Below are positions 184 to 22,194 of a stretch of 37,820 nt of DNA, in pieces. Position 1 is the first letter of the stretch. Each line of letters begins with the position of its first letter. The stretch is from positions 1 to 37,820 of the forward strand of contig JAGXOA010000064.1 in the NCBI GenBank assembly GCA_019894715.1, given 5' to 3'. A program made the translations under genes and the position numbers. Origin of the DNA: Promethearchaeota archaeon. Lineage in GTDB: Archaea; Asgardarchaeota; Lokiarchaeia; Sigyniarchaeales; SOKP01. Below the pieces are notes generated by a model. The model worked only from the letters and a program-made list of their open reading frames with translations. It was not told where the DNA came from and ran no database searches.

Positions 184-2589
184 TTATCTAGTTTTAGATT
201 TAAATTTTTGATATAATGCTTTATCTAGGTATTTTCCTATTTTTTTTGCAATAATTTTTGCAATCTCGTATTTTTCTCCATCATATAATTTTTCTTGTTC
301 AATACTACCTTTTTTTGGGGTATGACGTTTTTCTAAAATTTGTTCTATATGGTTTATTACATCATTTTTTATGATTTCTTGATTTGGTAACTTTATATTT
401 GGTGCTAAGGTTCTTATTTTATCTAATGCAAATACAAAATATTCTGTTATTCTTTCTAACGACCCTCCATCTAATTCACTGTGTAATTTTAAATTTTCTG
501 TAGTCGTCTTTGTATCTTTATCTTGCCAATATAATTGATTTGGATTTATTCCAGAACTATTGATTCTCATTAAAGAAGAAGTAATTCTACGCTCTATCCA
601 ATTAAGTGTGCTTATTTTTTGCTTCTCTATTATTTTTAATTTTTTCTGCTCTTTCTCTTTTTCTTTTGCACTAATTTCATTTATAATGGCTTTTCTTCTT
701 GTTTCTTCAAATTGCTCAAATCTCTTAATTAGATCATATCCTAAACAATAAGAAATAGGTGAAATTAAATCCTTACTTAGTTTTATATCTTTTATATTTT
801 TATAGATTGGACTGGGAGAATTACTATACATCTTCATTGCTTTTTCTAAAGATGTATCTAATAATCTTGCTAATATAAATCCATTAATGAGAAATGGTTG
901 ATTTTCTGCATTAAATATCAATACTAATTCTTTTTGTCTTTTCTTTAAACGTTTGATTAATAATTCTTCTAATTTTATCCAAACCCATTCTTCTGATTTA
1001 TTTGTCTTATACATTTTTTTAAAAGCTAAGAGATATAATGCTTTTTCATTTGAAATCTTATGATATGATTCAATAATTCTACTTAGTTGTCTTAGAATCT
1101 TTGATAAGGTGTAAAAAAAGATATCTTTAACGATATTATTTATTATCTCTTTAAAATCTAATAAAAAAAGAATTTGTGAATAATCAACTAAATTCAAATT
1201 CTTTAGAAAAATTTCATCAATTATCTCTTTCTTTTTCAAAGATTCTTTCAATTCTATATATGTAATACCTATTTTCCTTTCTAATATTTCCCATAATTCA
1301 TTAAATTCATTTCTCTCCCTTTTTAATAGTTCAATAAGACTTTTCTTTTCATTTCCTATAATATTTTCTTGATTTTTTACATTGATATTATTAATTTCTA
1401 TAAGGGCTTTTTTTGCTATATTTACTATATTTTTTTTCTGATCATTCAACTGCATTATATCAAATTTATCGATATTGTATCTTATCATATTTTCTTCAAT
1501 ATTTGTAACAAGTTCTTCATCAACATTGATAATTTGTAAAATATTATAGATTCCATATTTGTTTAAAGCATAAATTATTTCCTCAAAACATTCTTCATTG
1601 ATATGTTGTAAAAAATATATAAAATCATTAGGATTTGTTTTAAATTGAATAATTATCTCTTTTTTTAAAAAATTTAATACTTTTTCTTCAAATTCATCGA
1701 AATTGATATCCGTTTCTAGAGCATTTTCAATAATGCGAATTAGAGTCTTTTTTAATTTATTTGCATTCTTAAATGCTTTTAATCCTGGAATTGATATTGG
1801 AAAGCGGTTAAGATCATACTCAATGATTTTTTTCTTTATCATTCTACCTGGCATTGCACTCATTTTTAATTCTTGATATGACTTAAATTCGAAATCTTTT
1901 TGAATCTTTTTCTTTATTCTTATCAGTGTTGATAATTCGATATTCTTATCCTCTTTTTCATCTTGTAGTAATTTTTTCTCTAATTCAATAGATATATCTT
2001 TAAATTTTGCGCCTTCATTTAAAATATCCCGTTTAATATTATTGGTTAATCCAATTAAATCTCCAATTAGATCATAAAAATTAAAAGATGAGAAATGTAA
2101 CATAATTTCCAATAGTTCTTTTTCTAAATTTTTATCAATTTCATTTAGTAAATTTTCTTTTTCACTCTCAATTATATCATCGTTTCTCACTTTTATTAAT
2201 AAACCTAAGAATTTATCCTCCAAATCTATTAGCTTAAATAACATCTTGATTTCAGACTCAAAGGAATCTTTTAATAAAAATTTTATTTCGTTATAGATAG
2301 TTTTTTTTTCATTGATTTCTAATTTTTTTGAATATTCAAAAGTTCCTTTATCTAAGTCTACAGACTCCCCAACTCTAATTCCATGATTATGATAAATATG
2401 TACTGAAGCTGTTGCTATTAATAAATCTTTTAATGTTGCTTTTTTTTCCACTAATTCAAAAATCTTTGCCTTATCTGCTTCTCTTTTAAAATGAGATAAT
2501 ATTAAATCAATAGTTTGGAAATATCTAAAAGTACTCTCAACAGCAGTTGTCTTTCTTTTTATTCCAGTAATCATAATTCTTTTATCCAC
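184..2589 (-). CDS. Large helical protein of unknown function (801 aa)
   Basis: I do not recognise a family. The protein is almost entirely predicted helix, rich in K, E, I, N and L, with charged coiled-coil-like stretches (for example the EKEKEQKKLKIIEKQK region near residue 650). It has no signal peptide, membrane segment, cysteine cluster or nucleotide-binding loop that I can see. The GTG start at 2587-2589 lies inside the end of the upstream gene, a 19-base overlap, so the two are probably translationally coupled and work together. A shorter start at the ATG six codons in is possible. The downstream end abuts the TnpB element remnant. Confidence 0.75.
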   Translation of the reverse strand: MDKRIMITGIKRKTTAVESTFRYFQTIDLILSHFKREADKAKIFELVEKKATLKDLLIATASVHIYHNHGIRVGESVDLDKGTFEYSKKLEINEKKTIYNEIKFLLKDSFESEIKMLFKLIDLEDKFLGLLIKVRNDDIIESEKENLLNEIDKNLEKELLEIMLHFSSFNFYDLIGDLIGLTNNIKRDILNEGAKFKDISIELEKKLLQDEKEDKNIELSTLIRIKKKIQKDFEFKSYQELKMSAMPGRMIKKKIIEYDLNRFPISIPGLKAFKNANKLKKTLIRIIENALETDINFDEFEEKVLNFLKKEIIIQFKTNPNDFIYFLQHINEECFEEIIYALNKYGIYNILQIINVDEELVTNIEENMIRYNIDKFDIMQLNDQKKNIVNIAKKALIEINNINVKNQENIIGNEKKSLIELLKRERNEFNELWEILERKIGITYIELKESLKKKEIIDEIFLKNLNLVDYSQILFLLDFKEIINNIVKDIFFYTLSKILRQLSRIIESYHKISNEKALYLLAFKKMYKTNKSEEWVWIKLEELLIKRLKKRQKELVLIFNAENQPFLINGFILARLLDTSLEKAMKMYSNSPSPIYKNIKDIKLSKDLISPISYCLGYDLIKRFEQFEETRRKAIINEISAKEKEKEQKKLKIIEKQKISTLNWIERRITSSLMRINSSGINPNQLYWQDKDTKTTTENLKLHSELDGGSLERITEYFVFALDKIRTLAPNIKLPNQEIIKNDVINHIEQILEKRHTPKKGSIEQEKLYDGEKYEIAKIIAKKIGKYLDKALYQKFKSKTR

Positions 2590-4874
2590 TCTCTATACAC
2601 TTGTTTAAAATTATCTAATAAGTTTACCATTATATATCCATCTCCCCAATATTTAATATTAAATACTTGAAATAAATCTCCTTTAAATAGCTCTCTCTCC
2701 TCATTAGTAGAATTATATTTAAGAATTAATGATTTAGGAATTGGAATTAATTTAGAAAAATATTTTAATTCATTTTTTCTTATGTAATTATAAAAATTAT
2801 CGCTTTCATTAACTTTAAAATACTCTAGGGGTATTATTTCTTGTGACGTAGCAAGAAGACTACTAATCTTATTCTCAATTTTCTTTTTTATATATATTGG
2901 AAATTCTGTTTTAATCCCAAGAAAATATTCATATTGTTTAAGGAATGATAATAAATTATCTCTTTTATCCTCATTTTTTTCTTGAGCTATGAAATTATCT
3001 AAAAATTCCATAAATTTTTCAGGATCTTGGGATTTACTTTCTCTCTCTTCTAAATAATTTATAAAATCATTATAAATCTCAATAAGAGTCCATTCTTTCT
3101 TAACATTCAATTTTAGAAAAATCTTCGTATAATCCTTTATCCATTCAAGAATATAATTTTTCCAGGTTAAATCTATACCAGATAATCTCTTCTCTAAAAA
3201 TCTATGAAATTTTGTAGAAAATAATACTGGATCACTAATTTCTGAACTTGGAACTTCCTTCAGATATCTATTTATTGTAGAATAACGTAGAATATAACTT
3301 AAAAGAAAATGAAGTTCATCTGAAAACATTTTAAATCCTTTTATTGAATCTTTTATGTTGATTGAATCCTGTAGATTAATTTCTGTAAAAGAAACGATAT
3401 CCTTAATTTTCAATTCTATTTTTCGAAAAAATTCATCAAGATTATTGAAAACTAATGTTTTAAATGATTTTAGAAGAATTTTATTATCAAATTCCCTATC
3501 ATTTTTATTTGAAAAAGATATAATTTCAATTTTTTTTAATATATGTTCATGAAATTCATCAAAAATACGCTCTCCTAAAATTCTAGAAGGTTTTGGTTCA
3601 TTGATAAACTCTTCTTTTAATTCTTTAATTAGATTTTTTATATTTAACCTTAAATTTCGATTTACTAAATATTGGTATTTATAAGTATTTATAATCATCA
3701 GAGTATTATTAACTAATTCTGAAAAATAATTAAAAACTGATGTTAATTCATTAGCTCTTATCTCATCCTTTTTTATTATCATTTGACTAATGAAATTACT
3801 TGTGATATTGAATAACTCAGAAAAATCATTATTGTTATTATTTTTAATTTTCTTTCCAAAAAGTTCTAAGATTTGATCTATGGATCCTTTTTCTCCACTT
3901 ATTTGAAAATCTTTACTTAAACTAAAGAAACGTTCAATATTTGTCTTAATTTGCTCTAGAATAATATCAATTCTGGAAATTAACCAGTTTTCAGATTTTA
4001 ATTCATTTACCTTTGCTAAATCTTTTTCTATATTTTTTATAAAAAACTTAACTAATTTATTTTGGAAATAGTCGATTGTACCTGTATTTACTAAATTCAA
4101 GAGATTAGTTCCCAAATTTAAGGTTTTTTCAATTACAAAATTAGCACTTGGTTCTGTAATTGAAAACTTAAGATGTTCTTTTGCTGTCTTTCCTTCGAAT
4201 GGATTTTTTAATTTTTCAAATTTATTGTGTGATAAGGTAATTTCAGTTGGATTTTTATGCCATTGCAGATCTATCCTTGATTTTAATTTACAGTATTTCT
4301 CCAAAAACTTTTTCTCTGTTGGCATTAAATCTGATAGGCCAATCATTTCTTTATTCCATTTATTTTCAATCAATTGGCCATATAATTTTTTTGTAAATCG
4401 AGAAGCAAATCTTCTAAAAACATGCTCTTTTTGATTATTACTGAGTTCAGGGTTATTTGCATAATCTTCAACCTCAAAAAATAATCTACTTATATGGGTG
4501 ATTGCTTTATTTGATTTGTGTATATTAATATAACCTATCTCGGGCTTTAATGCAAGCATTAAACTTTCACAATCTTTGTAATTCCCTGGTACCAATATCA
4601 TTGATTTTGGAAAGATCCTTGTTTTAAAATCCTCAGGATAAAAATTTTTTAATTCAAATTCAATAAAAAATAATTCAGAACCAGTGTAATCTCTCAACAT
4701 TGCATTAAATTGAGTAAGATATTTTATAACATCTACAGAAAGTTCTTTAATAATTGCTTTTTTTAGACTGCCTGGTCCAATTATATCTCCCACAATCAAA
4801 TTCTCTTGATTTGGGGAGGAATATCCAAACATTATAGAAAATTGATAATTAATTGATTCTCTAGTGGTTATCAT
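2571..4874 (-). CDS. Large helical protein of unknown function (767 aa)
   Basis: First gene of a two-gene minus-strand unit, starting at ATG 4872-4874. The first ~140 residues look mixed alpha/beta (SIMFGYSS, LIVGDIIGPG, LFFIEFELKNFYP), and the remaining ~600 are helical, with repeated LI/EF/KK patterns and no obvious catalytic motif. No membrane segment or signal peptide is apparent. The C-terminus is compact and aromatic (FNIKYWGDGYIMVNLL). It is divergently arranged with a roadblock/LC7 gene 235 bases away, a fold that usually acts as a GTPase-system scaffold. A link between them is only suggested by position. No family assignment is offered. Confidence 0.75.
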   Translation of the reverse strand: MITTRESINYQFSIMFGYSSPNQENLIVGDIIGPGSLKKAIIKELSVDVIKYLTQFNAMLRDYTGSELFFIEFELKNFYPEDFKTRIFPKSMILVPGNYKDCESLMLALKPEIGYINIHKSNKAITHISRLFFEVEDYANNPELSNNQKEHVFRRFASRFTKKLYGQLIENKWNKEMIGLSDLMPTEKKFLEKYCKLKSRIDLQWHKNPTEITLSHNKFEKLKNPFEGKTAKEHLKFSITEPSANFVIEKTLNLGTNLLNLVNTGTIDYFQNKLVKFFIKNIEKDLAKVNELKSENWLISRIDIILEQIKTNIERFFSLSKDFQISGEKGSIDQILELFGKKIKNNNNNDFSELFNITSNFISQMIIKKDEIRANELTSVFNYFSELVNNTLMIINTYKYQYLVNRNLRLNIKNLIKELKEEFINEPKPSRILGERIFDEFHEHILKKIEIISFSNKNDREFDNKILLKSFKTLVFNNLDEFFRKIELKIKDIVSFTEINLQDSINIKDSIKGFKMFSDELHFLLSYILRYSTINRYLKEVPSSEISDPVLFSTKFHRFLEKRLSGIDLTWKNYILEWIKDYTKIFLKLNVKKEWTLIEIYNDFINYLEERESKSQDPEKFMEFLDNFIAQEKNEDKRDNLLSFLKQYEYFLGIKTEFPIYIKKKIENKISSLLATSQEIIPLEYFKVNESDNFYNYIRKNELKYFSKLIPIPKSLILKYNSTNEERELFKGDLFQVFNIKYWGDGYIMVNLLDNFKQVYREWIKEL

Positions 4875-17475: not shown

Positions 17476-17736
17476 TTAGTATAATAGATTTTTTTTTATT
17501 TTTTTTTTAAAATGATGTCCTTTCTCTGTAAGGATATATTCTTCTTCTTTTTTATCAATTAAATTCAAATTTAGTAATACTGGGATTCTTCCTTTAATAC
17601 AAGATATAGGAATACCTGAAAAGAGTTTTATTGTATCAAAATTCTTTGCACCTTTATCTATAGCTGAAAAGATTTCAATACCGATATTACCCAATAAATA
17701 TTCTAGATCTTCTTCAGTAGGTTCTTCTTTTGGCAT
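17476..17736 (-). CDS. Small winged-helix domain protein
   Basis: 86 aa. Helices EDLEYLLGNIGIEIFSAIDKG and FDTIKLFSGIP precede a recognition-like helix (ISCIKGRIPVLLNLNLI) and a short wing (DKKEEEYILTEKGHHFKKKI). The IL-x-x-KG ending is typical of archaeal winged-helix proteins. It could be a DNA-binding regulator or a protein-interaction module. It follows the longin/winged-helix gene by 59 bases on the same strand and may be co-transcribed with it. Confidence 0.75.
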   Translation of the reverse strand: MPKEEPTEEDLEYLLGNIGIEIFSAIDKGAKNFDTIKLFSGIPISCIKGRIPVLLNLNLIDKKEEEYILTEKGHHFKKKIKKNLLY

Positions 17737-17795: not shown

Positions 17796-19088
17796 TTATT
17801 CCATTTCTTTTTTGTTATTTTTTTTTTTGACGAGCTTTTTTTTAAATTTAGGAGCATCCTTTTCATTATTGTTATTCTTAGAGGCTTTAAAACTTGTTAT
17901 AGGGGGCTCTTTTTCTAAATAATTATTTTCTTTACTTAATTTATCATTTACAATTAGATTATATGTATCTGCAACTACAGGTTTTGCTTCTTTGGGTAAT
18001 AGTTTTCTTAAATACTCAGGAAAAGCTGTTGTGATCTGTAAATTTGTTTTTAGAACAATATATCTTTCATTCTTATATTTTAATTCTTCAATTATATCAT
18101 GTTCTTTTAAAAATTCTATAACTTTGCTTAGAGCATTTAAATTTCTTTTTGAAACTAATTTTGGTAATTTATCTCTTGGAATTAGTCCATTTCTTAATTC
18201 TGAGAGTACATTATACTTTTTTGGATCTGCAATAATTTGAAAAAGATGAAAGGAATCATCTTCTAATTCTTCTTCGGTCTTTGTCTCATAACTACTAAAA
18301 TATTTTTGAACTTTTGGAAGAATTAATTCAATTAATTTTGGTGTTTCATCTATATATTCAATAACACTATCTGGAGGAATTCTTTCCGCATTAACTTCTT
18401 TTAGCAATAATACATATTTTTCAACAATCCCTATCTGATTTATAAATATTAGCTGTCTTTTAATTAATGTTTCAATCGTATCATCAAAAGATTTTTTTAA
18501 AAAACAATTTTGAAACCATTCTCTTAACCACTCTAATGGTAATGGCCCCTTGGAGAGTTTTCTAAGCGTTTGAAAAATGTATTTTTTCTTTAAAAGGTTT
18601 GCCAATTTTTCTTCTTCTGACTTTTCTCTTGTTATCTCTATTGTTTCCCAATATAGTTCTCTTACCCGTAATTTCACTAGCTCATTATTTTTGATAATAA
18701 GTTCTTGTTCTTCTTTATCAAAATTTCTGATGTCTCCTATACGAAATGCTGTATAAATTGTTTCAATTGATTTCAATTTTTCAGAAAATTCAGAACATAA
18801 AGATTGTATTTTTTCTTCTATTTCTGAGAGTGTTTGTTGCTCAAAAATAAATGAAATCATTAGCATATCTTTATTACCTCTAGCCCAGTCTGATGATATT
18901 TCAAAATAATAATTCATTGTAATTATTTCTTCGAATGAATGTGTGAAAAAACCTTCTATGAATTGTTGATCCATTATATTCGCTATTCTTGTTAATAATT
19001 TGTCATCTAATATATTTTCTGGATATGAATAGAATATTAAAGGTCCAATTTTACGATGAAAATAACTTAATGCACAAATATTCTTCAA
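17796..19088 (-). CDS. Longin-like domain plus winged-helix protein, NPRL2/3-like plan
   Basis: 430 aa. Residues 1-125 look like a longin/roadblock-fold domain: ICALSYFHRKIGPLIFYSYPE, MNYYFEISSDWARG and MLMISFIFEQ. The opening phe-x-x-x-x-GP-x-ile-x-tyr-x-x-pro-glu resembles eukaryotic NPRL2 (GATOR1), where a longin domain is also followed by winged helices. Here winged-helix-like regions are at ~165-225 (FQTLRKLSKGPLPLEWLREW) and ~285-350 (YNVLSELRNGLIPRDKLPKLV). A lysine/asparagine-rich tail ends the protein. The start is a TTG with GGAGA upstream. A GTPase-regulating role is inference; family membership beyond the fold plan is untested. Confidence 0.75.
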   Translation of the reverse strand: MKNICALSYFHRKIGPLIFYSYPENILDDKLLTRIANIMDQQFIEGFFTHSFEEIITMNYYFEISSDWARGNKDMLMISFIFEQQTLSEIEEKIQSLCSEFSEKLKSIETIYTAFRIGDIRNFDKEEQELIIKNNELVKLRVRELYWETIEITREKSEEEKLANLLKKKYIFQTLRKLSKGPLPLEWLREWFQNCFLKKSFDDTIETLIKRQLIFINQIGIVEKYVLLLKEVNAERIPPDSVIEYIDETPKLIELILPKVQKYFSSYETKTEEELEDDSFHLFQIIADPKKYNVLSELRNGLIPRDKLPKLVSKRNLNALSKVIEFLKEHDIIEELKYKNERYIVLKTNLQITTAFPEYLRKLLPKEAKPVVADTYNLIVNDKLSKENNYLEKEPPITSFKASKNNNNEKDAPKFKKKLVKKKNNKKEME

Positions 19089-20979: not shown

Positions 20980-22194
20980 ATGATATCAATAAAAGAAAAA
21001 GAAGATTTTATAGGTCCAAAAGCACTCTTTGATCCTCTCTATATCCCTCCTAAATTACTATATAGAAAAAAAGAAGAAAATTCTCTCTTTTCAATTTTAG
21101 ATGATTGTCTGACAGATAATTATTCTATGAATATATTATATCAAGGTGTTGAAGGAATTGGAAAAAAAGTAATTATAAATAAAGTATTAAGAGATCTGAT
21201 TAAAGAAAATGATTGTCTTAATAGCTATAATAAAATAAATATTGATTGCAAAGAAAAAGGCCTAGATGAAATAATTATTTATCTTTTATCATCAATTTTG
21301 AGAATATTGAATATTAAAATTGATATTAATATGATAATTAACTCAAAGATCTCACAAATTTGGAATATAATGAAATTAGCTGTAAAAAAACTTAATAATA
21401 AAATAGTAATTATCCTAAATAATTCTGAAAATCAAGATTTCCAAATAATAAAAAAAATACTTTCATTTAGCAAAGAATCAAAAATTACAACGATCTCAAC
21501 AATAAATCAAGTTTTAAAACCATCTAAATGGGAAATATTACAATATTATGATCTTAAAAGGAAACTAAATCATTTCTCATATACTCAACTCTTTGATATT
21601 CTTAAACAAAGAGCTTCTTTAAGTTTTTCTCATCAAATTGATTTTGAATTGATTGAATATATAACAGATACTATTTTTGATAATTATATTCCTATTCCTG
21701 GTAAAGGAGTTGAGATTTTAAAAGATCTTTTTCCTTATCTCCACTCAAGAGATTCAGTAAAATACAATCTATTAATAGAAATTTGTGAAAATCACTTTGA
21801 ATCATTTCTTATCTTTGATGAATTTAATATGTTATCATTCTTATCTGAAGAAGATTTATTAACTATGATTTTTCTGGATAATCTAACAAATTATTTTATG
21901 AAAAATTCATCTAATTTTTACGTAAATTTAGAATCTTTAAAAGAATTATATTTTATATCTTGCGAAACTACTGGTTATAATAAGAGTCGTGATGAATTTT
22001 CTCAAATGATTAAAAAACTTGAAAATCTCGGAATTATTAATTCATCCAAGAAAGGTATATTAGAAAAAACTGATAAATATTCAAATAATCATCCACTAAA
22101 TAATTTTTATTTTATTTCAATAAGTCCATTAAAATTAAAAGCTATGATTGATGCTATTTTTGAAAAAAATCATATAACTGATTTGAATAATTAA
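20980..22194 (+). CDS. Orc1/Cdc6-like AAA+ protein with degraded ATPase motifs
   Basis: 404 aa. The opening DPLYIPPKLLYRKKEENSLF is the hallmark of archaeal Orc1/Cdc6 initiators (D-x-x-YIP-x-x-L-x-x-R-x-x-E), followed by MNILYQGVEGIGKKVI in the Walker A position and a C-terminal winged-helix region (residues ~290-400). The Walker A threonine is replaced by lysine, and the Walker B Asp-Glu by Asn-Asn (IVIILNNSEN), so ATP hydrolysis is doubtful. The ATG at 20980 has no ribosome site. An ATG at 20939 with GGGG 8 nt before it would read into this frame if the A9 run at 20972-20980 were one base longer. No convincing origin-recognition boxes seen nearby. Confidence 0.85.
   Translation: MISIKEKEDFIGPKALFDPLYIPPKLLYRKKEENSLFSILDDCLTDNYSMNILYQGVEGIGKKVIINKVLRDLIKENDCLNSYNKINIDCKEKGLDEIIIYLLSSILRILNIKIDINMIINSKISQIWNIMKLAVKKLNNKIVIILNNSENQDFQIIKKILSFSKESKITTISTINQVLKPSKWEILQYYDLKRKLNHFSYTQLFDILKQRASLSFSHQIDFELIEYITDTIFDNYIPIPGKGVEILKDLFPYLHSRDSVKYNLLIEICENHFESFLIFDEFNMLSFLSEEDLLTMIFLDNLTNYFMKNSSNFYVNLESLKELYFISCETTGYNKSRDEFSQMIKKLENLGIINSSKKGILEKTDKYSNNHPLNNFYFISISPLKLKAMIDAIFEKNHITDLNN

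Follow-up and report, generated by a model that had tools for sequence, protein, structure and literature searches.

Did GTPase (guanosine triphosphatase) control by a catalytic arginine residue exist before eukaryotes? The question is raised by a gene on contig JAGXOA010000064.1 (positions 1–37,820) of a Promethearchaeota archaeon, assembly GCA_019894715.1; this whole stretch of 37,820 nucleotides is called the window below, and the product of the gene is called protein A. A first-pass annotation, made from the sequence alone, had proposed that A is a possible archaeal relative of the GATOR1 subunits NPRL2/NPRL3. From predicted structure, sequence conservation and analogy with eukaryotic complexes, we suggest, at a probability of about 0.6, that A is an archaeal longin-domain GTPase-activating protein (GAP), or the catalytic subunit of one. 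This proposal draws on the predicted fold, the domain order, an invariant arginine residue, arginine-less paralogs, Rag-type GTPases encoded in the genome and related longins fused to such GTPases.

Protein A has the domain order of NPRL2 and NPRL3

The structure of A was predicted using AlphaFold2 from a 27-sequence alignment, giving a predicted local distance difference test (pLDDT) score of 80, and secondary structure was assigned with DSSP. The model begins at codon 2, so that model residue n is residue n+1 of the open reading frame (ORF); ORF numbering is used throughout. In the model, tandem winged helices come after a longin domain and a DENN domain is lacking; this bears out the longin-like start and two winged-helix regions described in the first-pass annotation. 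The F-x4-GP-x-I-x-Y-x2-PE pattern, which that annotation had likened to NPRL2, is present at residues 10–24 as FHRKIGPLIFYSYPE, and human NPRL2 (PDB 6ces_N) carries the same pattern as FHPTLGPKITYQVPE. Npr2 and Npr3 have been described as containing only a longin domain and then a triad of winged helices, with DENN abbreviated or never present (Zhang et al. 2012, PMC3521125).

The model was compared with 350,542 PDB chains using Foldseek. Ranks 1–13 all belonged to GATOR1, the SEA complex (SEAC) or FLCN–FNIP2, with NPRL2-size chains leading the list and a best E-value of 3.5e-6; 6ces_N and 8adl_S were assigned by sequence as NPRL2/Npr2 and 6ulg_L as FLCN, and the other top chains by entry and chain length only. 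Below rank 13 came CodY and ArsR-type winged helices, DENND1A, the Lst4 longin and DENND10. The best matches were therefore not unrelated longins and the winged helices stood in the same order, the opposite outcomes having been named beforehand as speaking against a relationship. Alignments to the longer GATOR1 chains covered 456–493 columns, winged helices included, but with a root-mean-square deviation of about 22 Å, and so support the domain order and not the relative placement of the domains.

An invariant arginine residue lies at the catalytic site of longin-domain GAPs

The Ala69-Arg70-Gly71 loop was unchanged in 27 orthologs of A. Only three residues, Phe10, Gly15 and Arg70, were invariant across 34 longins drawn from several Asgard classes, those from other classes being mostly ~20% identical to A. 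When the search was repeated with the arginine loop masked, 62 covered matches were obtained, in which the arginine residue fell in the same column (57), was shifted by one (2), was misaligned (1) or was absent (2). Ascertainment bias as the source of the invariant residue was thus ruled out, as the arginine was kept in about 60 of the 62 matches. In hhalign and in three MAFFT modes, Arg70 of A was placed in the same column as R164 of FLCN, which we take to be the arginine finger of that protein.

Arginine fingers are known for NPRL2 (R78) and yeast Npr2 (R84) (PMC9646525), and for SMCR8 (R147), in whose class NPRL2 and FLCN were also placed (PMC8213707). In DENN-type GAPs, too, the finger lies between strands 4 and 5 (PMC12803157). 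Judged by the model and the alignments, A is a longin with a conserved arginine between these two strands, which is the mark of longin-domain GAPs in the wide sense. The longin of A would dock onto a Rag/Arf-type small GTPase, and Arg70 would enter the nucleotide pocket and speed GTP hydrolysis in the manner of NPRL2 R78, FLCN R164 and SMCR8 R147, whereas the winged helices would provide assembly surfaces, as in NPRL2/NPRL3, and not bind DNA.

A paralog family of the same layout lacks the arginine residue

The genome of the window encodes six copies of a paralog, family B, which was found in each of 39 genomes from the order and is distributed widely across the phylum. Homology between A and B spans the whole length of both (hhalign 99.9%, E-value 2e-32), and they have the same winged helices, but the arginine loop is missing from B; the two form separate clades (support 100/100). 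The B model had a pLDDT of 90 and its best PDB matches were again GATOR1 chains, with generic longins close behind; VAMP7, AP-2 and TRAPP longins were among its fold matches. The Pfam NPR3 model did not match family B.

To our knowledge, eukaryotic longin GAPs all combine one subunit carrying the arginine with one lacking it. The natural guess, by analogy, is therefore that B is the NPRL3-like, arginine-less counterpart of A, as expected for an NPRL2/NPRL3-like pair. The likeliest partner of A would then be a family B member, the two forming a pseudo-symmetric longin heterodimer with one arginine-bearing and one arginine-less subunit.

Elsewhere in the same genome (L085:1051–11820, contig C284), two family B genes each lie directly downstream of a gene for a giant Ig/LamG-like membrane protein, with overlapping starts. 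The membrane proteins (1367 and 1424 residues) have similar lysine-rich cytoplasmic tails, and the locus looks like a receptor–adaptor operon in tandem repeat.

Asgard arginine longins resemble Folliculin and occur fused to Rag-type GTPases

On the Pfam Folliculin model (PF11704), A itself scored 11.7 bits, below the 23.3 cut-off, but the model matched seven of the 34 Asgard arginine longins (best E-value 7.7e-7), and it detected longins above the cut-off in 34 of 196 Asgard genomes compared with none of 14 controls. The Asgard longin family is no more distant in sequence from Folliculin than from NPRL2, and because of this the description 'ancestor or sister of longin-domain GAPs (NPRL2, FLCN, SMCR8)' appears to fit A better than 'NPRL2' alone. 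A shares with the longin-DENN GAPs FLCN and SMCR8 the loop aligned on FLCN R164, and several of its Asgard relatives exceed the Folliculin cut-off, but it differs from them in having no DENN domain and in its own score. The Pfam Afi1 model also matched the longin start weakly (best E-value 0.0078); the Afi1/Avl9 DENN GAPs share the conserved arginine in the strand 4–5 loop, but combine longin and DENN in a single chain and act on Arf GTPases.

Many Rag-type GTPases are encoded in the genome of the window. One of them, a 470-residue chain (L109:1003–2412, contig C109), consists of a Folliculin-like longin (24.0 bits) with the loop DPKARGNAKAST, followed by a Gtr1/RagA GTPase (82.7 bits), and may be a GTPase that carries its own GAP domain. 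Another Rag-type GTPase of the same genome is joined to a B-type longin. Longin–GTPase fusions in Loki are already known (PMC4917890, PMC10933270); we did not find the Folliculin match and its arginine described in these two papers.

Further architectures were seen among the Asgard arginine longins. Five proteins of 395–448 residues (L234:1360–2595, L235:1243–2586, L237:613–1797, L239:376–1560 and L241:344–1579) have a longin above the Folliculin cut-off (best 32.6 bits) and the loop FFFVEDATARGG, and then a region that is DENN-like by eye (ALLKNENVLVFGQKGEIALTLATLRWFLPHKK), in which no Pfam DENN match was found. If this region is real, proteins of this type would be prokaryotic longin-DENN proteins. 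Three open frames of 1693–8821 residues (L216–L218; G143:C87, G147:C14 and G174:C192) end in an arginine-loop longin (EARGGQENLSL) located past a likely membrane segment. A C-terminal arginine-loop longin is also found at L204, L209, L212, L213, L224 and L231; L204 and L224 (full reading) begin with a response-regulator-like receiver domain, a combination that suggests phospho-relay control of a GTPase.

The gene, its distribution and its neighbourhood

The coordinates of the gene and its parts are collected in Table 1. In the ORF reading, the TTG start follows immediately after an in-frame stop and has a GGAGAG-type sequence just upstream. Approximately full-length orthologs (35–84% identity) were found in ~69 of 79 genomes of the order, and the genomes without one were mostly incomplete and contained only longin-domain paralogs. 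These orthologs, together with the conserved local gene order, establish A as a real gene. Named relatives are Lokiarchaeota, Prometheoarchaeum, Harpocratesius and Sigynarchaeum; among named genomes, Lokiarchaeota are the nearest, in agreement with the Asgard origin that had been presumed. In one genome of another family of the same class (L103), A carries an additional N-terminal longin.

Table 1. Protein A, its predicted parts and the adjacent winged-helix gene in the window
Feature	Position	Strand	Description and basis
Gene for protein A, whole	17796..19088	-	430 residues, TTG start; longin, linker helix and two winged helices; ORF translation
Longin domain	18723..19088	-	Residues 1–122 (about 2–122 in the model); five strands plus helices; DSSP, fold matches and motif FHRKIGPLIFYSYPE
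Ala69-Arg70-Gly71 loop, proposed arginine finger	18876..18884	-	Between strands 4 and 5; Arg70 codon 18879–18881; model and alignments
Long helix joining longin to winged helices	18630..18716	-	Residues 125–153; DSSP of the model
Winged helix 1	18378..18617	-	Residues about 158–237; model; common to family B
Winged helix 2	18024..18275	-	Residues about 272–355; model; ArsR-type among later PDB matches; common to family B
C-terminal tail	17799..17960	-	Residues 377–430; lysine-rich, disordered, little conserved; pLDDT <50; alignment
Stand-alone winged-helix protein, next downstream of A	17476..17736	-	86 residues; Pfam HTH_45 26.5 bits (cut-off 25.5)

A homolog of the small winged-helix protein was present at 67 of 86 A loci, on the same strand in 61 of the 67 and mostly at -16 to +142 nucleotides from A; the two genes are probably co-transcribed. 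It is a speculation that the small protein completes a winged-helix triad of the NPRL2 type. The other conserved neighbours at the 86 loci encode a HAD hydrolase (78), a nitrilase-type hydrolase (64), a DUF2095 protein (54) and ribosomal protein L15e (53). A Cdc6/Orc-like ATPase that ends in a winged helix (window positions 20980–22194, + strand; Pfam Cdc6_C 22.4 bits, cut-off 25.1), adjoining an SMC gene, was found at 51 of the 86. No GTPase gene adjoins A among these conserved neighbours (HAD hydrolase, nitrilase-type hydrolase, Cdc6-like ATPase, SMC and L15e). At window positions 184–4874 (- strand), two adjacent genes encode long proteins of 801 and 767 residues, for which a Pfam scan gave no convincing family.

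Discussion

The most defensible statement is that A, judged by its model and alignments, combines the NPRL2/NPRL3 layout with the arginine site of longin GAPs and probably acts as a GAP on a GTPase of the Rag/Arf type. The likeness to NPRL2/NPRL3 of GATOR1/SEACIT extends from the identical N-terminal motif through the longin and tandem winged helices to the arginine at the catalytic loop and the existence of an arginine-less paralog of the same layout, and GATOR1 is the best fold match in the PDB. Differences include that the A chain has two winged helices instead of the described triad, a third being encoded by a separate gene, and that the arginine-less family B is far more widespread than A.

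Several results weigh against this assignment or against its NPRL2 component. NPRL2 R78 and yeast Npr2 R84 lie one alignment column away from Arg70, and the residue after the NPRL2 arginine is asparagine, compared with glycine in A. TM-scores against whole GATOR1 chains were low (0.2–0.3), so that the match depends on the longin and the domain order and not on overall shape. Full-length A was seen only in Lokiarchaeia and in no other Asgard class, the A and B genes are not neighbours, and the longins in the GTPase fusions are of other subtypes than A. Pfam NPR2 (PF06218) was above its cut-off in none of 59 Asgard genomes and was absent from the Pfam matches of A, and in the same 59 genomes nothing exceeded the cut-off of Pfam IML1 (DEPDC5/Iml1). 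The profile–profile comparison with NPRL2 proposed in the first-pass annotation did not succeed: hhalign covered the first 27 residues only, and the best profile E-value for NPRL2 in the PDB was 1.2. Direct detection of NPRL2 with phmmer, hidden Markov models or hhalign likewise gave no significant match, whether the target was the PDB, Pfam NPR2 or verified human and yeast sequences; this counts against orthology. Thus the relationship to NPRL2/NPRL3 is upheld as regards domain order, fold matches and arginine position, but orthology is unproven, because Pfam NPR2 is silent, hhalign is limited to 27 residues and DEPDC5 is absent.

The absence of a significant match to the NPR2 and NPR3 models raises the question of whether the NPRL2-like architecture arose by convergence, a longin having been joined, in an event separate from the eukaryotic Npr2/Npr3 lineage, to winged helices that are common in archaea. 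Such an origin, which concerns descent and is compatible with GAP activity, is also favoured by the best significant Pfam match being Folliculin and not NPR2, and by the many other architectures of Asgard arginine longins, which imply that domain shuffling is frequent. However, the architecture is common to the paralogous families A and B, of which B is phylum-wide, with GATOR1 chains as the best fold match for both, and even if the architecture alone were convergent, the longin and its arginine site would still be homologous; we consider convergence rather unlikely.

A different function is conceivable on the same fold. A could be a longin–winged-helix scaffold or exchange factor of the TRAPP, Mon1–Ccz1 or roadblock-platform type, in which the arginine loop contacts a GTPase without catalysis. 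Most longin/roadblock dimers are indeed exchange factors or platforms (PMC10933270), VAMP7, AP-2 and TRAPP longins appear among the fold matches of B, and B is both more widespread and arginine-less, so that the shared ancestral function may have been something other than a GAP. This explanation seems improbable to us, since the fold matches of A are headed by proven arginine-finger GAP complexes and invariance is confined to three residues, the arginine at the catalytic site among them. Still less probable, in our judgement, is a transcription regulator whose longin senses a GTPase or ligand while its winged helices and the small downstream protein bind DNA. The ArsR-like appearance of the winged helices and the co-directional winged-helix gene downstream in most genomes would agree with it, but no Pfam transcription-regulator family matches A, NPRL2/NPRL3 with the same longin–winged-helix layout work in a GAP complex, and the longin motif and the arginine loop are among the most strongly conserved parts.

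The longin-domain GAP reading can be extended, tentatively and at less than even odds, to a specific scheme: Lokiarchaea may possess an NPRL2/NPRL3-type A–B heterodimer that acts on Rag-like GTPases without DEPDC5, and the wider Asgard pool of arginine-loop longins, of which some are joined in cis to Rag-type GTPases and score as Folliculin, may be the source of eukaryotic NPRL2, FLCN, SMCR8 and Avl9.

The idea of an NPRL2-like longin in Asgard archaea is in part already in use as an annotation category. Asgard signature proteins already include a category named 'NPRL2-like longin domain' (asCOG, cited in PMC9834061), in which Lokiarchaeum ossiferum is reported to be enriched; the window gene is a candidate member only. 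The passage on this category in PMC9834061 carries the same label for Asgard longins and does not mention winged helices, the arginine, an arginine-less paralog or a link to Folliculin. No description of the Asgard-longin arginine loop, the arginine-less paralog or the Folliculin match was found in the searchable literature. New here are the arginine loop, the phylum-wide arginine-less paralog, the Folliculin match with its Rag-type fusion, and the downstream winged-helix gene in most relatives.

Asgard archaea contain dozens of Rag-, Arf- and Ras-type GTPases, whose GAPs are essentially unassigned, and regulators are hard to match to these GTPases from gene layout (PMC10933270). An arginine kept across Asgard classes at the GATOR1/Folliculin catalytic site singles out a specific GAP family, with a residue for mutagenesis and candidate substrates, and makes the date of origin of Rag-GTPase nutrient control testable in vitro. 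Because a near-invariant arginine occupies the site of the human GAPs in a Lokiarchaeal protein, the arginine-switch type of GTPase control probably predates eukaryotes. If the heterodimer and common-pool scheme is true, nutrient signalling by way of an arginine finger would likewise be older than eukaryotes.
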